From positions 1,612,001-1,676,000 of the forward strand of contig NZ_CP045484.1 in NCBI RefSeq assembly GCF_009729055.1: a stretch of DNA of 64,000 nt, given 5' to 3'. Source of the stretch: Sulfurisphaera ohwakuensis (lineage in GTDB: Archaea > Thermoproteota > Thermoprotei_A > Sulfolobales > Sulfolobaceae). Shown here piece after piece: positions 12,903 through 64,000 of the stretch (the stretch's first letter is position 1; each line of letters begins with the position of its first letter). The notes under the pieces were generated by a model. The model made no database searches and had not been told where the DNA came from. It saw nothing but the letters and a program-made list of their open reading frames with translations. The translations under genes and the position numbers were made by a program.

Positions 12903-13487
12903 CTAAACTTTTTTTATACCATAAAATAATTCATTATTTGGTAATAGAGAATTTACCCTATATAGGAAAGTCTTAACTGGGAAAAACCCCTGCTTTGTCA
13001 TCACTCTTCTTAACTCCCATGGGAAATAAAGATGATAATATCTCTCTACTACAAGGTTATTAATCCTACTTCTCAGAAACACATTTCGTCTGAAAAAGAA
13101 TCTTGGTTGAACTAACCAGACGGTAACTAAAACCTCACCTTCACTTTTTAAGCATCGATAACATTCTTTTAGTGCTAATGAAGGATCTTTTAAATGATGT
13201 AATGAAGCTATATAAAGTAAGGAGTCAAACGTGTTATCTCTAAAAGGCAAATACTCCATATCAGCCTGAACTAAATTATCACAACCCTTTTTTCTAGCCT
13301 CAATTAATTGCCTTAAAGCAATATCTAGACAAATAACAAAACGTGATTTTAATGTTAAACAGTTCTGACCAGAGCCACAACCAATATCACCAACTATTTT
13401 TCCCTTTATTAACGAGAGATATGGAACAGGCTTTCGCCTATGTACAATATGTTCATAGGCGTTCTTTACTTTTTCCTTCTCACTCAC
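12903..13487 (-). CDS. SAM-dependent methyltransferase (Trm9/ABH8-like)
   Basis: A 194-residue class I methyltransferase. Motif I is [13 protein letters not shown] (residues about 32-44), followed by the acidic end of strand 2 (CLDIALRQL), motif III-like [20 protein letters not shown] and the post-motif [21 protein letters not shown]. The ADMEYLPF and SLHHL stretches resemble Trm9-type tRNA wobble-uridine methyltransferases, so tRNA modification is the leading guess; small-molecule methylation is possible. Its start lies only 33 bases from the start of the divergent HypE-like gene, so the two promoters overlap. Confidence 0.8.
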
Positions 13488-58571: not shown

Positions 58572-59153
58572 CTATAAATTAATTTGGGATTCGTTCTCTT
58601 TCACCTCCTCTTCCTCACAACATATTCTATTCCCAAAAGGTATATCTCCTAACTTTAACTTCAATGACATAGAAGCTTCTAATAATGATCTCTGAATACT
58701 TTCTAATATTTTATACCATGCTAAATTAGGATTGTCATCTCTAATTTTAATTCCCAATTCATAAGCTATTTGCTTTAATCCTTGGACACAAGATAAAATA
58801 ACTGAGCAATTTCCGCAGATATATGTTGTGTCATTCATGTCAAAATAAATTAGCTGTTTTTTATTAGTTATATATATTATTCCGTCTTTTAGAACTATTC
58901 CCCCTTTATCGTTAAGAGCATAAGGAATAACCACTTTAAATGATATAGCGTTATCTAGTAAAAGTCCCATTTTCCTAAGCTTATCAACTATAAAATAAAA
59001 ATAACTTTTACTGATTTCACCGTCTCTTTTATCACTACTTAAAACTCTTACATAAACCTCATCTCTTAACCTCGAGAAGATTTCATCTTTAAGCAAAATC
59101 ACATCATTTGATATTATGGGTCTTGTAACATTAATAACTCTTAATAAACACAT
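58572..59153 (-). CDS. Hypothetical protein with a paired-cysteine motif, 193 aa
   Basis: A soluble protein starting MCLLRVINVTRPIISNDVIL. It contains a possible metal-binding cluster, YICGNCSVILSCVQGLKQ (C-x-x-C...C), and a second cysteine pair near the C-terminus (RICCEEEEVKE). No family is recognised. It is the first gene of the minus-strand run opposite the cbsA gene and may be transcribed with the two small membrane proteins that follow. Confidence 0.55.
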   Translation of the reverse strand: MCLLRVINVTRPIISNDVILLKDEIFSRLRDEVYVRVLSSDKRDGEISKSYFYFIVDKLRKMGLLLDNAISFKVVIPYALNDKGGIVLKDGIIYITNKKQLIYFDMNDTTYICGNCSVILSCVQGLKQIAYELGIKIRDDNPNLAWYKILESIQRSLLEASMSLKLKLGDIPFGNRICCEEEEVKENESQINL

Positions 59154-59290
59154 ACGTAAAGATATCTATTTAAGGGTTTATATTCCTAAATTTAAAAATA
59201 TGTCGTATTAATGATTAACAATGTTAACCATTTATGAGATAAAGTTAAATAATTAAATCATTTTGAGAACAAAAGTAGAATTAGATAATC

Positions 59291-59299
59291 AGTCCAACG
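59291..59299 (+). promoter_or_regulatory. Shared motif AGTCCAACG upstream of cbsA
   Basis: The nonamer agtccaacg, followed here by attaac, begins 55 bases before the cbsA ATG. The same nonamer occurs at 61717 (55 bases before soxL2) and 62828 (45 bases before soxN), each time about 20 bases upstream of the likely TATA box. I infer a common activator site for the respiratory cluster. Confidence 0.6.
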
Positions 59300-59345
59300 A
59301 TTAACATTTTTGAGTTGAACTACTTAACTTATTAAATGTGGTAAA

Positions 59346-60743
59346 ATGAGTGTAAAACCTTCTACCAAATTAACCATAAGTATTGCTCTCTCAGTTCTTC
59401 TACTAGGAGTATTATTAGCAGTAACCAATACTCCTATGGCACAAACATCTCCGGACATACCAGTATACAAAGTTGTTGGTACAGCCGATTTATCTAATCC
59501 TGGCTCAGCATCTTATTGGTCAAAAATCCCATGGATTAACATTTCCCTAACAGCAAACATTCCTCAGGCACCAACTTCTGGTTTAACACATTATGTTTTA
59601 GTTAAGGCTGCTTGGAATGGATCGTGGATATTTGTATTAGTAAAATGGTACGCTCCTAACCCAGCATTTGGTGCTTGGTCAGCAGCTGCAGGTGCACTTT
59701 ATCCTCCAGCTTCTGGCCCAGGATTATTTAGACAAATAATGCTTACACCAGGAACCACATATACTATAGAAAAGAATTATACAAATTACATAGCCGTTGT
59801 AAATGGAAAGACATATCAGGGTAGGCTAGTTCTTAACTATTCTGGTATACTTTTACCTACTCCTAATGGAACACAAATAACTGTCTTATCTAATGGTTCA
59901 ATTGTCTTATGGCACTCCTTGAGACCAATGGAGGAATTATTATACAGTGATGGTATGTTTTATGGCTATTATACTAATTCAACATGGTATTATCCAGATA
60001 GAGTTGCTATGATGTGGTATATGGGTAGTGTAATACCACCAAGTAAGGACGGTATGAATATAGGTGGTAAATACCCCGGGCAAACATTCGATGGGGTTAC
60101 TTTTAAAGATGCTGGAGGTTCTTTAGCTCAACCAGGAGGTGCAGCTAATATTTGGATGTGGGTATCGGGAGCTACATGGAATAATTCCACTTACGATCCA
60201 GCATTTAAAGCGAATCTATGGCAGAATGAGTCTTTAACAGGTTTACCATATGTTGATCCTGGAAATCATGGATTTGCTGTACCCCTTTACTCAAATAATA
60301 CTAATATGTATGAGGTTGATTGTGCTGGAATATGGTATACACCAGTAGCATCTAAAGGATTAAATGGTTCACTATTCTTCATATGGACTGGTGCTACATG
60401 GAGTAATGGGTATTGGACTGTAGAGTTTGCTAGACCACTAGCTGTACCACCAAATTATGCCAATTGGATGCCTAATATAACAGTTGGGAAAACCTATTAT
60501 GTTGCCTTCGCAGTATGGCAGGGTAAATTAGGAGAGACCTTATTTGATAAGTCTATAACATCCTCGTTCTTAACATTACAGTTAGTAACCACTCCACCAA
60601 CTACGACTACTACAACTACTACTTCAGTCTCATCTACATCTACATCAGCTGCAATTCCTTCAACTACAGTAGATGTTACTGTAGTAGGTGCAGTTATAGC
60701 TATTTTAGCTTTAGTAGTATTATATGTGGTGTACAGAAGATGA
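59346..60743 (+). CDS. cbsA: Cytochrome b558/566 subunit A (CbsA)
   Basis: 465 residues. A signal peptide/anchor ([20 protein letters not shown]) is followed by a heavily N-glycosylated beta-rich domain of the ethylbenzene-dehydrogenase-related heme type ([54 protein letters not shown]). A threonine/serine stretch and a C-terminal helix ([20 protein letters not shown]) anchor it outside the membrane. CbsA of Sulfolobus is an extracytoplasmic mono-heme b protein with axial ligands among its Met and His residues. It overlaps cbsB by four bases. Proposed to pass electrons between an extracytoplasmic donor and the Rieske/cytochrome b pair encoded downstream. Confidence 0.92.
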
Positions 60744-61684
60744 AAATTCTATCCTTCCTTGAGAAAGATATAAAATATTTTTTTGTAATTTTAGGCATTT
60801 CTGGGTTTCTTCAATTCATGTTTTCTGAAGCTTTTATTTTTCCTTCAGCCTTACCTATTCATATCCCTGCTGAAATGTTTCTTCTCAGAACAGGTGCAGT
60901 TTCTTTTTACATCTTTTTCATTTCCCTCATTCTAGTCTCATTTCTTTTGTCTAACAAAGTGAAAGCTCTTCTACCTTTATCAATACTACTTATAATATCC
61001 CCTATTTTAGCGTATTTAAACGTCAACTATACATATTATTACGGTATTGAAATATTTGTAATAATAATAGCTATTACAGCATTGATCGAAGCTACTGTCA
61101 AAAGTAGTATAAAAGTAGTACTTCTCATTCCATCTGGAATACTAGTAGGACTAGGGTTAATAGCATCGTTTTTCATTACCTTTTATCATACTACCCTCTA
61201 CGTAAGTTATTTAGATTTTCTCATTTTTTCTGCAGTTACATTTTTAGTCTATACTATACTATGGAGGAGGATAACTAGTAAAAGGAGTATTATTGCTTAT
61301 ATTGTGGGCTTAATGAGCATGTATCCGTTTATTATGTTCGCTCATGAGATTATAACAAATAAGTATATACAAATCCTAATGGAAATGATACTTCCTTCAG
61401 CCCTCGGTATAACTATTTATAATCCTTCTCACTTACTCTATTTAGTTTACTTCTTAGGAATAATTACGTTTTCCATCATTTCTATCATTATTAAAGGTAA
61501 TGGTTCTGCAGGAATTGGTTATTTTATGCTAATATCCAATGTGTTTTTTGGGATATATGGCTATCTTTTGCTAATGTACATGTTAGTTCCTACTATTGGT
61601 TATGTTCTCATGTGTTATAATGAGATGAAAGAAGAAAGTATTATTAAATATTTATCACAAAAATTAAAAGTAAAAAATCAATAA
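60740..61684 (+). CDS. cbsB: Cytochrome b558/566 subunit B (CbsB)
   Basis: 314 residues with about nine helices and few charged residues. No heme motif is obvious, as expected for CbsB, the membrane partner of CbsA. The short overlap with cbsA (ATGA) and the order cbsA-cbsB-soxL2-soxN match the cluster known in Sulfolobus acidocaldarius and Acidianus. The C-terminus is basic and would face the cytoplasm. Function is assigned mainly from position. Confidence 0.88.
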
Positions 61685-61716
61685 TAAATTAAACTCTTTT
61701 TTAATTTAATATCTTT

Positions 61717-61725
61717 AGTCCAACG
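61717..61725 (+). promoter_or_regulatory. Shared motif AGTCCAACG upstream of soxL2
   Basis: The nonamer begins 55 bases before the soxL2 ATG, just upstream of a TATA-like box (ttatatgata, near 61733-61742). It is the second of three copies in this cluster. Its presence within the cluster, rather than only at its head, indicates that soxL2 has its own regulated promoter. Confidence 0.6.
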
Positions 61726-61771
61726 GCAAAAAGTTATATGATATAATGCTCACTTTTTATTGTGATAAAAA

Positions 61772-62752
61772 ATGATAAAGATAAGATTAGGAGATAAAGA
61801 CGAAAAGGCTGTGCTTAATTATTCAGATCTTGTCTTTATAAAGAGATTGTTAGCTAAAATGAGAGATCCTAAGACTAGATTCGATAGCAAAGAATTTGTT
61901 TCCAAGGGAGAGGACTATTTATTTAACTATGTAAATAAAAACGTAGGTAATGTTGATGAAAAAAGGAGAAAATTCCTTAAAGGTTTAATCTTTGGGATAG
62001 CTGCTGCAACAGTAGCTGCAATCATCCCTGGAGTAGAAGTTATAGTTCCTCCTCAAGTAGCAGCTGTTTCTGGTTTTCCTAAATCTCTCCTTGTAGATTC
62101 ATCTGGAAATCCAATTAAAGCTTCTGAAATACCAGTAAACAGTCCTTATATTGTTCTCTTTGAATACCCTATGACCGGGGAACCGAACTTCCTATTGAAT
62201 CTAGGAGATTCGTCTGGCAAACCAGTAGAAATACCTCCAACAAAAGTTGTTGTTCCACAGACTGGAGATACTTATGACTTTCCTGGAGGAGTAGGTCCAA
62301 ATAAATCAATCGTAGCTTATAGTGCAATATGCCAGCACCTTGGTTGCACTCCACCATATATACACTTTTATCCACCACAATATGTTAGTCCTTCACAATT
62401 AACTGCACCAGAACCAGATCAATTAACTGCCCAAGCATTATTAGCTGCTAAACAAGCTAAAGTGCCAGCAATAATCCATTGTGATTGTCACGGTTCTACA
62501 TATGATCCTTATCGTGGTGCTGCTGTTTTAACTGGTCCTACACAGAGACCATTACCTACTGTTGTATTAGAGTGGGATTCTAGTACAGACTATCTTTATG
62601 CTGTAGGATCTATAGGAGTTGCGGTTTATCCAGAAGGAGCTAACGGCGTACCGTCATCTAATCCAAAAGTTGATTTAGATAATAGTTTTGGGTCTCCAGT
62701 GGGTAGCAAGACGACTGTTCAAAATACTCAAAATCCTTTTAGCGGAAGTTAA
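61772..62752 (+). CDS. soxL2: Rieske iron-sulfur protein (SoxL2)
   Basis: 326 residues. A twin-arginine export signal (R65-R66 in EKRRKFLKGLIFGIAAATVA) precedes the Rieske domain, whose cluster-binding motifs are CQHLGC (187-192) and CDCHGSTYD (237-245), with C192 and C239 forming the usual disulfide. The polar N-terminal 65 residues lie in the cytoplasm. SoxL2 pairs with the cytochrome b SoxN encoded next. An extra loop of about 45 residues between the two motifs is typical of archaeal Rieske proteins. Confidence 0.94.
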   Translation: MIKIRLGDKDEKAVLNYSDLVFIKRLLAKMRDPKTRFDSKEFVSKGEDYLFNYVNKNVGNVDEKRRKFLKGLIFGIAAATVAAIIPGVEVIVPPQVAAVSGFPKSLLVDSSGNPIKASEIPVNSPYIVLFEYPMTGEPNFLLNLGDSSGKPVEIPPTKVVVPQTGDTYDFPGGVGPNKSIVAYSAICQHLGCTPPYIHFYPPQYVSPSQLTAPEPDQLTAQALLAAKQAKVPAIIHCDCHGSTYDPYRGAAVLTGPTQRPLPTVVLEWDSSTDYLYAVGSIGVAVYPEGANGVPSSNPKVDLDNSFGSPVGSKTTVQNTQNPFSGS

Positions 62753-62827
62753 TTTTTTCCTCTTTTTATTATTTTCTTATTTAATTTTTGATAAATAGTG
62801 AAGTATCTTCATCATTTCTTAAAAATC

Positions 62828-62836
62828 AGTCCAACG
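62828..62836 (+). promoter_or_regulatory. Shared motif AGTCCAACG upstream of soxN
   Basis: Third copy of the nonamer (agtccaacgcttaatcc), 45 bases before the soxN ATG. A TATA-like box (tttttaatatc, about 62845-62855) lies between, with a spacing that predicts a leaderless soxN transcript, which explains the shorter distance to the start codon. Confidence 0.6.
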
Positions 62837-62872
62837 CTTAATCCTTTTTTAATATCTTTCTAATTTAATCAT

Positions 62873-64000
62873 ATGAGTGATAGAGTCTCAAATTGGTTTA
62901 AGGAAAGACTGGGATTAGATGATTTACCATTTTTCAGAACACCAGACTATATGTATAAAGTCAATTTCTGGCTAGGAGCACTAGTAGCTTCAGCATTTAT
63001 CTATACTGTAATATCCGGTTTAATACTACTTCTCTATTATAATCCTGACCAAGGATATGAGTCCACATTATTCATCATAGATAAAGTTCCTTATGGATCT
63101 GTAGCCCTCTATAGCCACTTATATGGCGCTTATGCAATGATAATTTTAGCTTATGTTCATATGTTTAGAAATTACTTCGCTGGAGCGTACAAAAGACCTA
63201 GAGAGTTACTATGGATAATTGGAGTTATTATGTTAGTTCTAACATTAGGTACTTCTTTCCTTGGATATAGCTTAATCGGTGATGCATTGGCTACTAGTGC
63301 TGTAGATGTAGGTGCTGGAATAGTTTCTTCAGTTCCTGGATTATCGGGATTATTACCAGTATTATTTGGAAATTACGATGCTGGTCAGTACGGTAGAGTA
63401 TTAGCATTACATATAATTTTTGCTGCACTTATTGGAGTGCTATTTGTATTTCACTTCTTCCTAGCCGAGCACTACGGAATGATGCCGTCAAGGAAGGAAA
63501 AACCAAAAGCCCCTGCAGTATATACAAAGGAGGAATGGATGAAATTTAACCCATGGTGGCCAAGGAATTTTGTTTATATGATGTCATTAGTCTTCCTAAC
63601 TTGGGGCTTTATACTAGTTATTCCAAATGCACTATCATATTTAAGTGGATTACCACAGCAATTAAATCCATTCTTAAATCCAAAGCCTGCTCCTCCACCA
63701 AATTCTCCAGCTGCTGCACATATAACAACTTATCCACCATGGTTCTTCCTATTCCTATATAAGATGGCTGATTTCACTAACAACGTATTATTATTCCTAC
63801 TATTTAGCTCAATAATACCCCTAGTTTACCTAATAATTGTGCCATTCCTAGATAGAAGCGCAGAACTGCATCCTCTAAAAAGGAAAGTATTCACTGGTAT
63901 AGGAATACTAATGATTGTGTATTTAATTCAAAATACTATTTGGGGTGATCTAACCCCTGGAGTACCAATACCATTTAAGCAACAAGTTATAGCATTCTTA
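62873..64000 (+). CDS. soxN: Cytochrome b (SoxN), 5' part
   Basis: 376 codons are in the window and the frame is open at the end. It starts MSDRVSNWFKERLGLDDLPF. The four heme-ligand histidines are in two helices with the standard 14-residue spacing: H82 and H96 (SHLYGAYAMIILAYVHMFRN) and H180 and H194 (LHIIFAALIGVLFVFHFFLA). A PPWFFLF motif (about residues 287-293) corresponds to the quinone-site 'PEW' loop, here PPW. With the Rieske protein SoxL2 it forms a bc1-analogous complex that oxidises caldariellaquinone. Downstream odsN is expected beyond the window. Confidence 0.93.
   Translation, partial: MSDRVSNWFKERLGLDDLPFFRTPDYMYKVNFWLGALVASAFIYTVISGLILLLYYNPDQGYESTLFIIDKVPYGSVALYSHLYGAYAMIILAYVHMFRNYFAGAYKRPRELLWIIGVIMLVLTLGTSFLGYSLIGDALATSAVDVGAGIVSSVPGLSGLLPVLFGNYDAGQYGRVLALHIIFAALIGVLFVFHFFLAEHYGMMPSRKEKPKAPAVYTKEEWMKFNPWWPRNFVYMMSLVFLTWGFILVIPNALSYLSGLPQQLNPFLNPKPAPPPNSPAAAHITTYPPWFFLFLYKMADFTNNVLLFLLFSSIIPLVYLIIVPFLDRSAELHPLKRKVFTGIGILMIVYLIQNTIWGDLTPGVPIPFKQQVIAFL

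Follow-up and report, generated by a model that had tools for sequence, protein, structure and literature searches.

A conserved promoter element upstream of cbsA, soxL2 and soxN in the Sulfolobaceae and a candidate family of regulators

The cbs/sox cluster of Sulfurisphaera ohwakuensis

The stretch of the Sulfurisphaera ohwakuensis genome analysed here (the window, 64,000 nucleotides, contig NZ_CP045484.1, positions 1,612,001 to 1,676,000) ends in a respiratory gene cluster composed of cbsA, cbsB, soxL2 and soxN (Table 1). A gene that we call divR is transcribed divergently from cbsA, and the intergenic region between both contains the palindrome TTAACnnnGTTAA. Since cbsB overlaps the stop codon of cbsA, it has no promoter or element of its own. 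Past the end of the window, a small protein with a PF03992 ABM domain (L143:8111-8398, forward strand) is encoded after soxN, in the position of odsN.

The scan of the window found three exact copies of the nonamer AGTCCAACG, all on the forward strand and at the places given in the original prediction, 55, 55 and 45 nt before the ATG of cbsA, soxL2 and soxN respectively. The claim that there is no other copy also holds, the remaining three matches in the window carrying one mismatch each. The TATA box, which had been located at about 20 nt from the nonamer, was measured at 16-17 nt from the nonamer start. In S. ohwakuensis the TATA box of cbsA (TTTTTGA) is weak.

Table 1 Features of the cbs/sox locus, in positions of the window. 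Scores (bits) are those of the matrix built from other genera.
Feature	Position	Strand	Description
divR	58572-59153	-	candidate regulator gene, 193 aa; divergent from cbsA
Palindrome TTAACnnnGTTAA	59214-59227		second motif; divR/cbsA intergenic region; conserved upstream of divR orthologues
cbsA element	59288-59313	+	ATC-AGTCCAACG, nonamer 59291-59299, spacer, TATA-like TTTTTGA 59307-59313; score 26.9
cbsA	59346-60743	+	cytochrome b558/566 subunit A; ethylbenzene dehydrogenase-type heme domain PF09459
cbsB	60740-61684	+	membrane subunit
soxL2 element	61714-61740	+	nonamer 61717-61725, TATA gTTATATG 61733-61740; score 24.4
soxL2	61772-62752	+	Rieske iron-sulfur protein, PF00355
soxN element	62825-62851	+	nonamer 62828-62836, TATA region 62844-62851; score 28.0
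soxN	62873-64000	+	cytochrome b, PF00033/PF13631; continues beyond the window end

Conservation, anatomy and regulon size of the element

We searched 31 Sulfolobaceae genomes, found cbsA in 28 and a soxL2-like protein in 30 of them, and fetched the orthologous clusters. In almost all of these clusters the nonamer was found at the same position, either unaltered or differing by one or two bases. A check of the regions upstream of orthologous cbsA, soxL2 and soxN genes, proposed along with the prediction, showed the element kept at the same place across genera, and in seven genera all three promoters carry it. An unbiased count of 9-mers in the -100 to -25 regions put AGTCCAACG at the top: it occurred in 17 of the 32 gene x genus cells, versus only 6 cells for the best 9-mer among 300 shuffled sets. 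Matrix scores were at least 23 at 27 of 31 cbsA regions, at least 15 at 24 of 26 soxL2 regions and at least 19 at 22 of 27 soxN regions, and reached at most -8.2 in the cbsB regions used as controls. We also scored both strands of the window with a matrix from which the own genus had been left out (62 sites from other genera). The three highest places were precisely those upstream of soxN, cbsA and soxL2, in this order (Table 1), followed by one of 13.5 bits at 13223, in an ORF on the other strand; simulated windows gave maxima of 8-14 in nine of ten cases and 20.4 in one. A chance repeat was rejected on the shuffled 9-mer counts, the conservation and the ranking with this matrix.

The soxN element is missing where soxN starts less than 20 nt after soxL2 (genomes G090, G118, G127 and G128), an absence that therefore fits a promoter element. 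Second or duplicated cbs clusters found elsewhere in the genomes G122, G102 and G072 retain it. In G102, cbsA is duplicated in tandem (L131, G102:C1:457113-461148); one of the copies has an in-frame TAG and both share the variant element AGTCCAATT. We are highly confident that a conserved promoter element is real here, with a very small regulon.

The conserved element exceeds nine bases and consists of ATnAGTCCAACGnnnnA plus a TATA box at fixed spacing. Gap-free alignment of 74 sites on the nonamer gave the consensus ATnAGTCCAACGnnnnAnnYTTWWWW, in which the A, G, T and AA pair belonging to the nonamer hardly vary, and all 74 sites lie directly upstream of the BRE/TATA. From nonamer start to TATA box there are always 16-17 nt, but from nonamer to ATG anywhere between 45 and 64 nt; the element is thus anchored on the core promoter, and a position fixed to the start codon was rejected. 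An A at +13, found in 96% of the sites, fits the A at -3 of the Sulfolobus BRE, and the purine expected at -6 of the BRE is mostly missing (19% at +10). For soxN the ATG follows the nonamer at 45-47 nt and the TATA box at about 29 nt, so its transcript looks leaderless. As TATA boxes lie 24-30 bp upstream of transcription starts (PMC12817955), short leaders are expected on the transcripts of cbsA and soxL2.

The whole S. ohwakuensis genome (2,803,915 bases) contains six exact copies of AGTCCAACG, namely the three window promoters, two within ORFs (L001, L005) and one intergenic copy located 48 nt before the ATG of the ORF C1:1996372-1996845, which encodes a 165-aa protein of the same family as DivR. 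Three of six copies on the same strand within 3546 bp have a P of 2.4e-5 under simulated random placement; this clustering and the conservation at orthologous promoters refute a random genomic distribution, the outcome that would have spoken against the prediction. Genome-wide scans were pattern-based, the matrix being applied to the window and to promoter regions. With up to two mismatches the extended pattern appeared at seven places of the home genome, three in ORFs and four at promoters (cbsA, soxL2, soxN and the gene for the 165-aa protein). The counts of the extended pattern in this genome were not above the reversed control (5+2 versus 5+3), so that the case for an operator rests on position and conservation. 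In the S. acidocaldarius-like genome G042 the extended pattern was found outside ORFs only at cbsA and soxN and at no other gene, those of the soxABCD, soxM and dox operons included, the soxL2 site of this genome being too degenerate for it.

Some other sites were considered as regulon members. The extra ones in Saccharolobus (G122:1271739, 2664459, 150777 and relatives) fall within ORFs and were rejected. A U32-peptidase-like gene (PF01136) is preceded by the AGTCCAACG element, at -45/-47, in L302:1836, L309:1746 and L307 (G050:C1:44644), but with the site in just 3 of 25 genomes, the gene was rejected as a general member and is at best a lineage-specific target. In some other genomes the promoter of this gene carries a TTAACnnnGTTAA-like sequence, and a divR-family gene often adjoins it. 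Conserved element-like sequences, ATCGGTCCAACG in L303 (G011:C2:101967, reverse strand) and ATCACTCCAACG in L311 (G059:C3:199837, reverse strand), have a correctly spaced TTTAAAT and no evident ORF behind them, and might belong to a small RNA gene. A perfect element is also found just beyond the 3' end of a divR-family gene (G119:C40:73316-73339, reverse strand; L308:2662, reverse strand), pointing antisense into that gene, with no clear ORF after it.

The DivR family and the second motif

DivR and the 165-aa protein belong to one family, present in 30 of the 31 genomes with one to four copies each and characterized by the pattern MCxxx....RP...SKSYYYYIL..L plus CX2CX5C; DivR itself has an HTH-like SKSYFYF helix and CX2CX5C. 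Pfam and NCBIfam gave no match above cut-off for the family, and below cut-off 6 of 59 members matched the MCM_C winged helix (best E 0.006). The AlphaFold model of DivR, built from only 8 sequences, has a pLDDT of 76, and its helices 32-39 and 49-61 appear rightly placed for an HTH (a single-sequence model with pLDDT 35 was set aside). Comparison of the model with the PDB and with viral folds gave no structural match and, because the predicted fold matches no known structure, the term HTH rests on the local helices and the sub-threshold MCM_C matches. The family-wide alignment (A1) is highly diverse and unfit as a scan query. No viral copies of the family were found. One relative (L347, JAPDLT010000019.1) comes from a contig in the bin of Candidatus Rehaiarchaeum fermentans, either by gene transfer or as a misbinned Sulfolobales contig.

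A member of the family is located at most 10 kb from the cluster in about 20 of the 27 genomes having both and in 9 of 11 genera, in varying orientation. The S. acidocaldarius-like G042 has a single copy, after an odsN-like gene, and G032 is devoid of cbsA, of a soxL2 orthologue and of the entire family. Furthermore, the element itself is found at -45 to -50 before 14 paralogues, one per genome, with scores of 9-25; all the other members score at most 0.1. These paralogues come from Sulfurisphaera, Saccharolobus, the genus of G011 and G059 (the latter being Candidatus Aramenus) and G114. That the AGTCCAACG element stands in the promoter of a paralogue in these four genera suggests that the family feeds back on itself. 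The Saccharolobus site is a variant (AGACCAACA or similar); a divergent second site on the opposite strand, AGTACAACG, lies within an ORF and was not counted as a promoter site. Four genomes (G066, G096, G117 and G090) keep the element without having such a paralogue.

Instead of AGTCCAACG, divR and most of its orthologues have the palindrome TTAACnnnGTTAA upstream, at a fixed place between -74 and -91 (loci with this motif: L183, L174, L180, L366, L353, L363, L371, L357, L370 and L374), and for this reason divR may be the target of another factor. In the home genome TTAACnnnGTTAA also precedes genes that, by sequence recognition, we take to code for a SufB-like protein, a protein disulfide oxidoreductase, a YedE-like protein, a molybdopterin oxidoreductase with Tat signal, the gamma subunit of a 2-oxoacid:ferredoxin oxidoreductase and a Cys-rich HTH-like protein of 106-108 aa, the last likewise in G102. 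The raw number of TTAACnnnGTTAA in this genome is not above control. The motif looks like that of a separate sulfur/Fe-S regulon and, since it also precedes genes of this type, a sulfur/Fe-S circuit may act on divR.

With somewhat less than even confidence, we take the DivR family as the best candidate for the regulator, which would bind the AGTCCAACG element and whose three conserved cysteines could sense metal or redox state. There is a considerable chance, also below one half, that the operator is bound instead by an unrelated factor encoded elsewhere and that the DivR paralogues are mere further targets. Most genes of the family, divR included, have no element and many carry TTAACnnnGTTAA instead, and the element-bearing paralogues are scattered on the tree rather than forming one clade. 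Nor is autoregulation a rule, as the XylR gene lies near its targets and yet its own transcription is seemingly unregulated (PMC7264815). An unrelated factor would leave without explanation, however, the neighbourhood of family and cluster kept across most genera, their joint absence from G032 and the fact that the sole further promoter copy in the home genome precedes precisely a DivR-family member. The more elaborate proposal is a tentative one that we put forward with less confidence: the DivR family would represent new Sulfolobaceae-centred, Cys-bearing redox- or metal-sensing transcription factors that bind AGTCCAACG and so determine how much of the bc1-like complex is made; one paralogue would take part in a feedback loop, and divR would be governed by a separate TTAACnnnGTTAA sulfur/Fe-S circuit.

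Reading the element as an operator

The HHC box and the AbfR1/HhcR regulon were reportedly predicted by Leyn et al. in 2015, like the present case an in-silico Sulfolobales regulon for metabolic genes. In Metallosphaera, AbfR1 binds DNA in a non-sequence-specific manner, although a ChIP region adjoins msed_0504 (cbsA), and the HHC box is contested (PMC12529230), which cautions against taking motif and neighbourhood as proof of a regulator. The ara-box AACATGTT is another conserved Sulfolobales promoter element with a small regulon, and the gene of its regulator XylR is near the targets (PMC7264815), but the ara-box is palindromic and XylR is backed by deletion and promoter mutations, whereas the consensus of AGTCCAACG is asymmetric, different from the palindrome AACATGTT, and its regulator is a candidate. 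The closest likeness in form is to the UV hexamer A(N)TTTC found at -44 to -39 in 214 genes of S. acidocaldarius (PMC5817253), which is also short, non-palindromic, located upstream of weak BREs and conserved between species, and whose binder was unknown when described. Both differ in sequence, the consensus being here AGTCCAACG and not A(N)TTTC at -44 to -39, in extent (about 4 promoters versus 214 genes) and in the process served, respiration versus UV response; moreover, the role of the hexamer was shown by mutation while that of AGTCCAACG is predicted from sequence.

Judging from the position and conservation of AGTCCAACG, a regulator that would switch cbsA, soxL2 and soxN together very likely docks there. 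The part of the original prediction that described a regulatory site shared by the cbsAB and soxL2/soxN modules is borne out by the orthologous conservation, and its activator part is argued from the BRE-proximal place and from precedents. Weak, activator-dependent BREs have been diagnosed from the missing -6 purine, and PF1088, ArnR box 1 and the Ss-LrpB site are cases of activators recruiting TFB from just upstream of the BRE (PMC5817253), in the same slot relative to BRE/TATA and with other sequences and protein families. Because the element lies directly upstream of a BRE mostly devoid of this purine, and by analogy with these precedents, a protein-bound activator site is what we would rather expect. 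In the overall explanation that we favour, to which we give a probability of about two thirds and in which we infer protein binding, activation over repression and the identity of the regulator, AGTCCAACG would be the core of a promoter-proximal operator, ATnAGTCCAACGnnnnA, marking the separately transcribed units cbsAB, soxL2 and soxN. A dedicated DNA-binding protein, probably an activator and with the DivR family as the best candidate, would occupy this operator directly upstream of the BRE/TATA and most likely aid TFB/TBP assembly on promoters with an imperfect BRE, and as a consequence the three units would rise and fall jointly.

The same operator could serve a repressor that overlaps the BRE, blocks TFB and shuts the bc1-like module under stress. 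The conserved element does extend into the BRE through the A at +13, a fixed slot beside the BRE might suit a repressor too and the genes of the module are known mainly for their down-regulation by stress; we nevertheless consider a repressor unlikely, given that the nonamer occupies the stretch before the BRE used by archaeal activators and that the -6 purine of a strong BRE is mostly missing, as argued for activator-dependent promoters (PMC5817253). The rigid TATA spacing, the coincidence with the slot of the UV hexamer and the discussion of TFB3 for UV promoters are compatible with a variant feature of the core promoter that is recognized by a general factor, for instance TFB2/TFB3 or a subunit of RNA polymerase, and not by a specific regulator, but such a feature should be present at many more than the four promoters of the home genome, as the 214 genes of the UV hexamer illustrate, which makes it improbable. 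The small size of the element is the one point in favour of an RNA acting in the 5' leader or of a chance repeat, and we give hardly any credence to either: with the TATA boxes downstream the element should not be transcribed, and soxN looks leaderless, while chance is excluded by the conservation and the leave-own-genus-out tests.

For the dedicated operator that we prefer, the physiological setting is suggestive. Members of the Sulfolobales alternate between different branches of the respiratory chain. In S. acidocaldarius the CbsAB-SoxLN-OdsN genes decrease jointly on nutrient depletion (PMC6335949) and on overfeeding (PMC11486757), and saci_1859-1862 go down on butanol in biofilm (PMC8208165). 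A literature search made mostly among papers available without subscription found no operator for the bc1-like module and no archaeal paper with AGTCCAACG, and it likewise agrees with the earlier statement that no regulator of the module has been described. The cbs/sox bc1-like module is repeatedly seen changing as a block, and the papers found name neither regulator nor operator for it. A conserved operator shared by about four promoters of the home genome offers a well-defined entry point to the regulation of this module, and the uncharacterised protein family beside the cluster provides a first candidate, with a single copy in S. acidocaldarius (L124:8615-9112), for which genetics are available. 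If the reading with DivR is true, no earlier case of a regulator dedicated to this kind of archaeal respiratory complex would be known to us.
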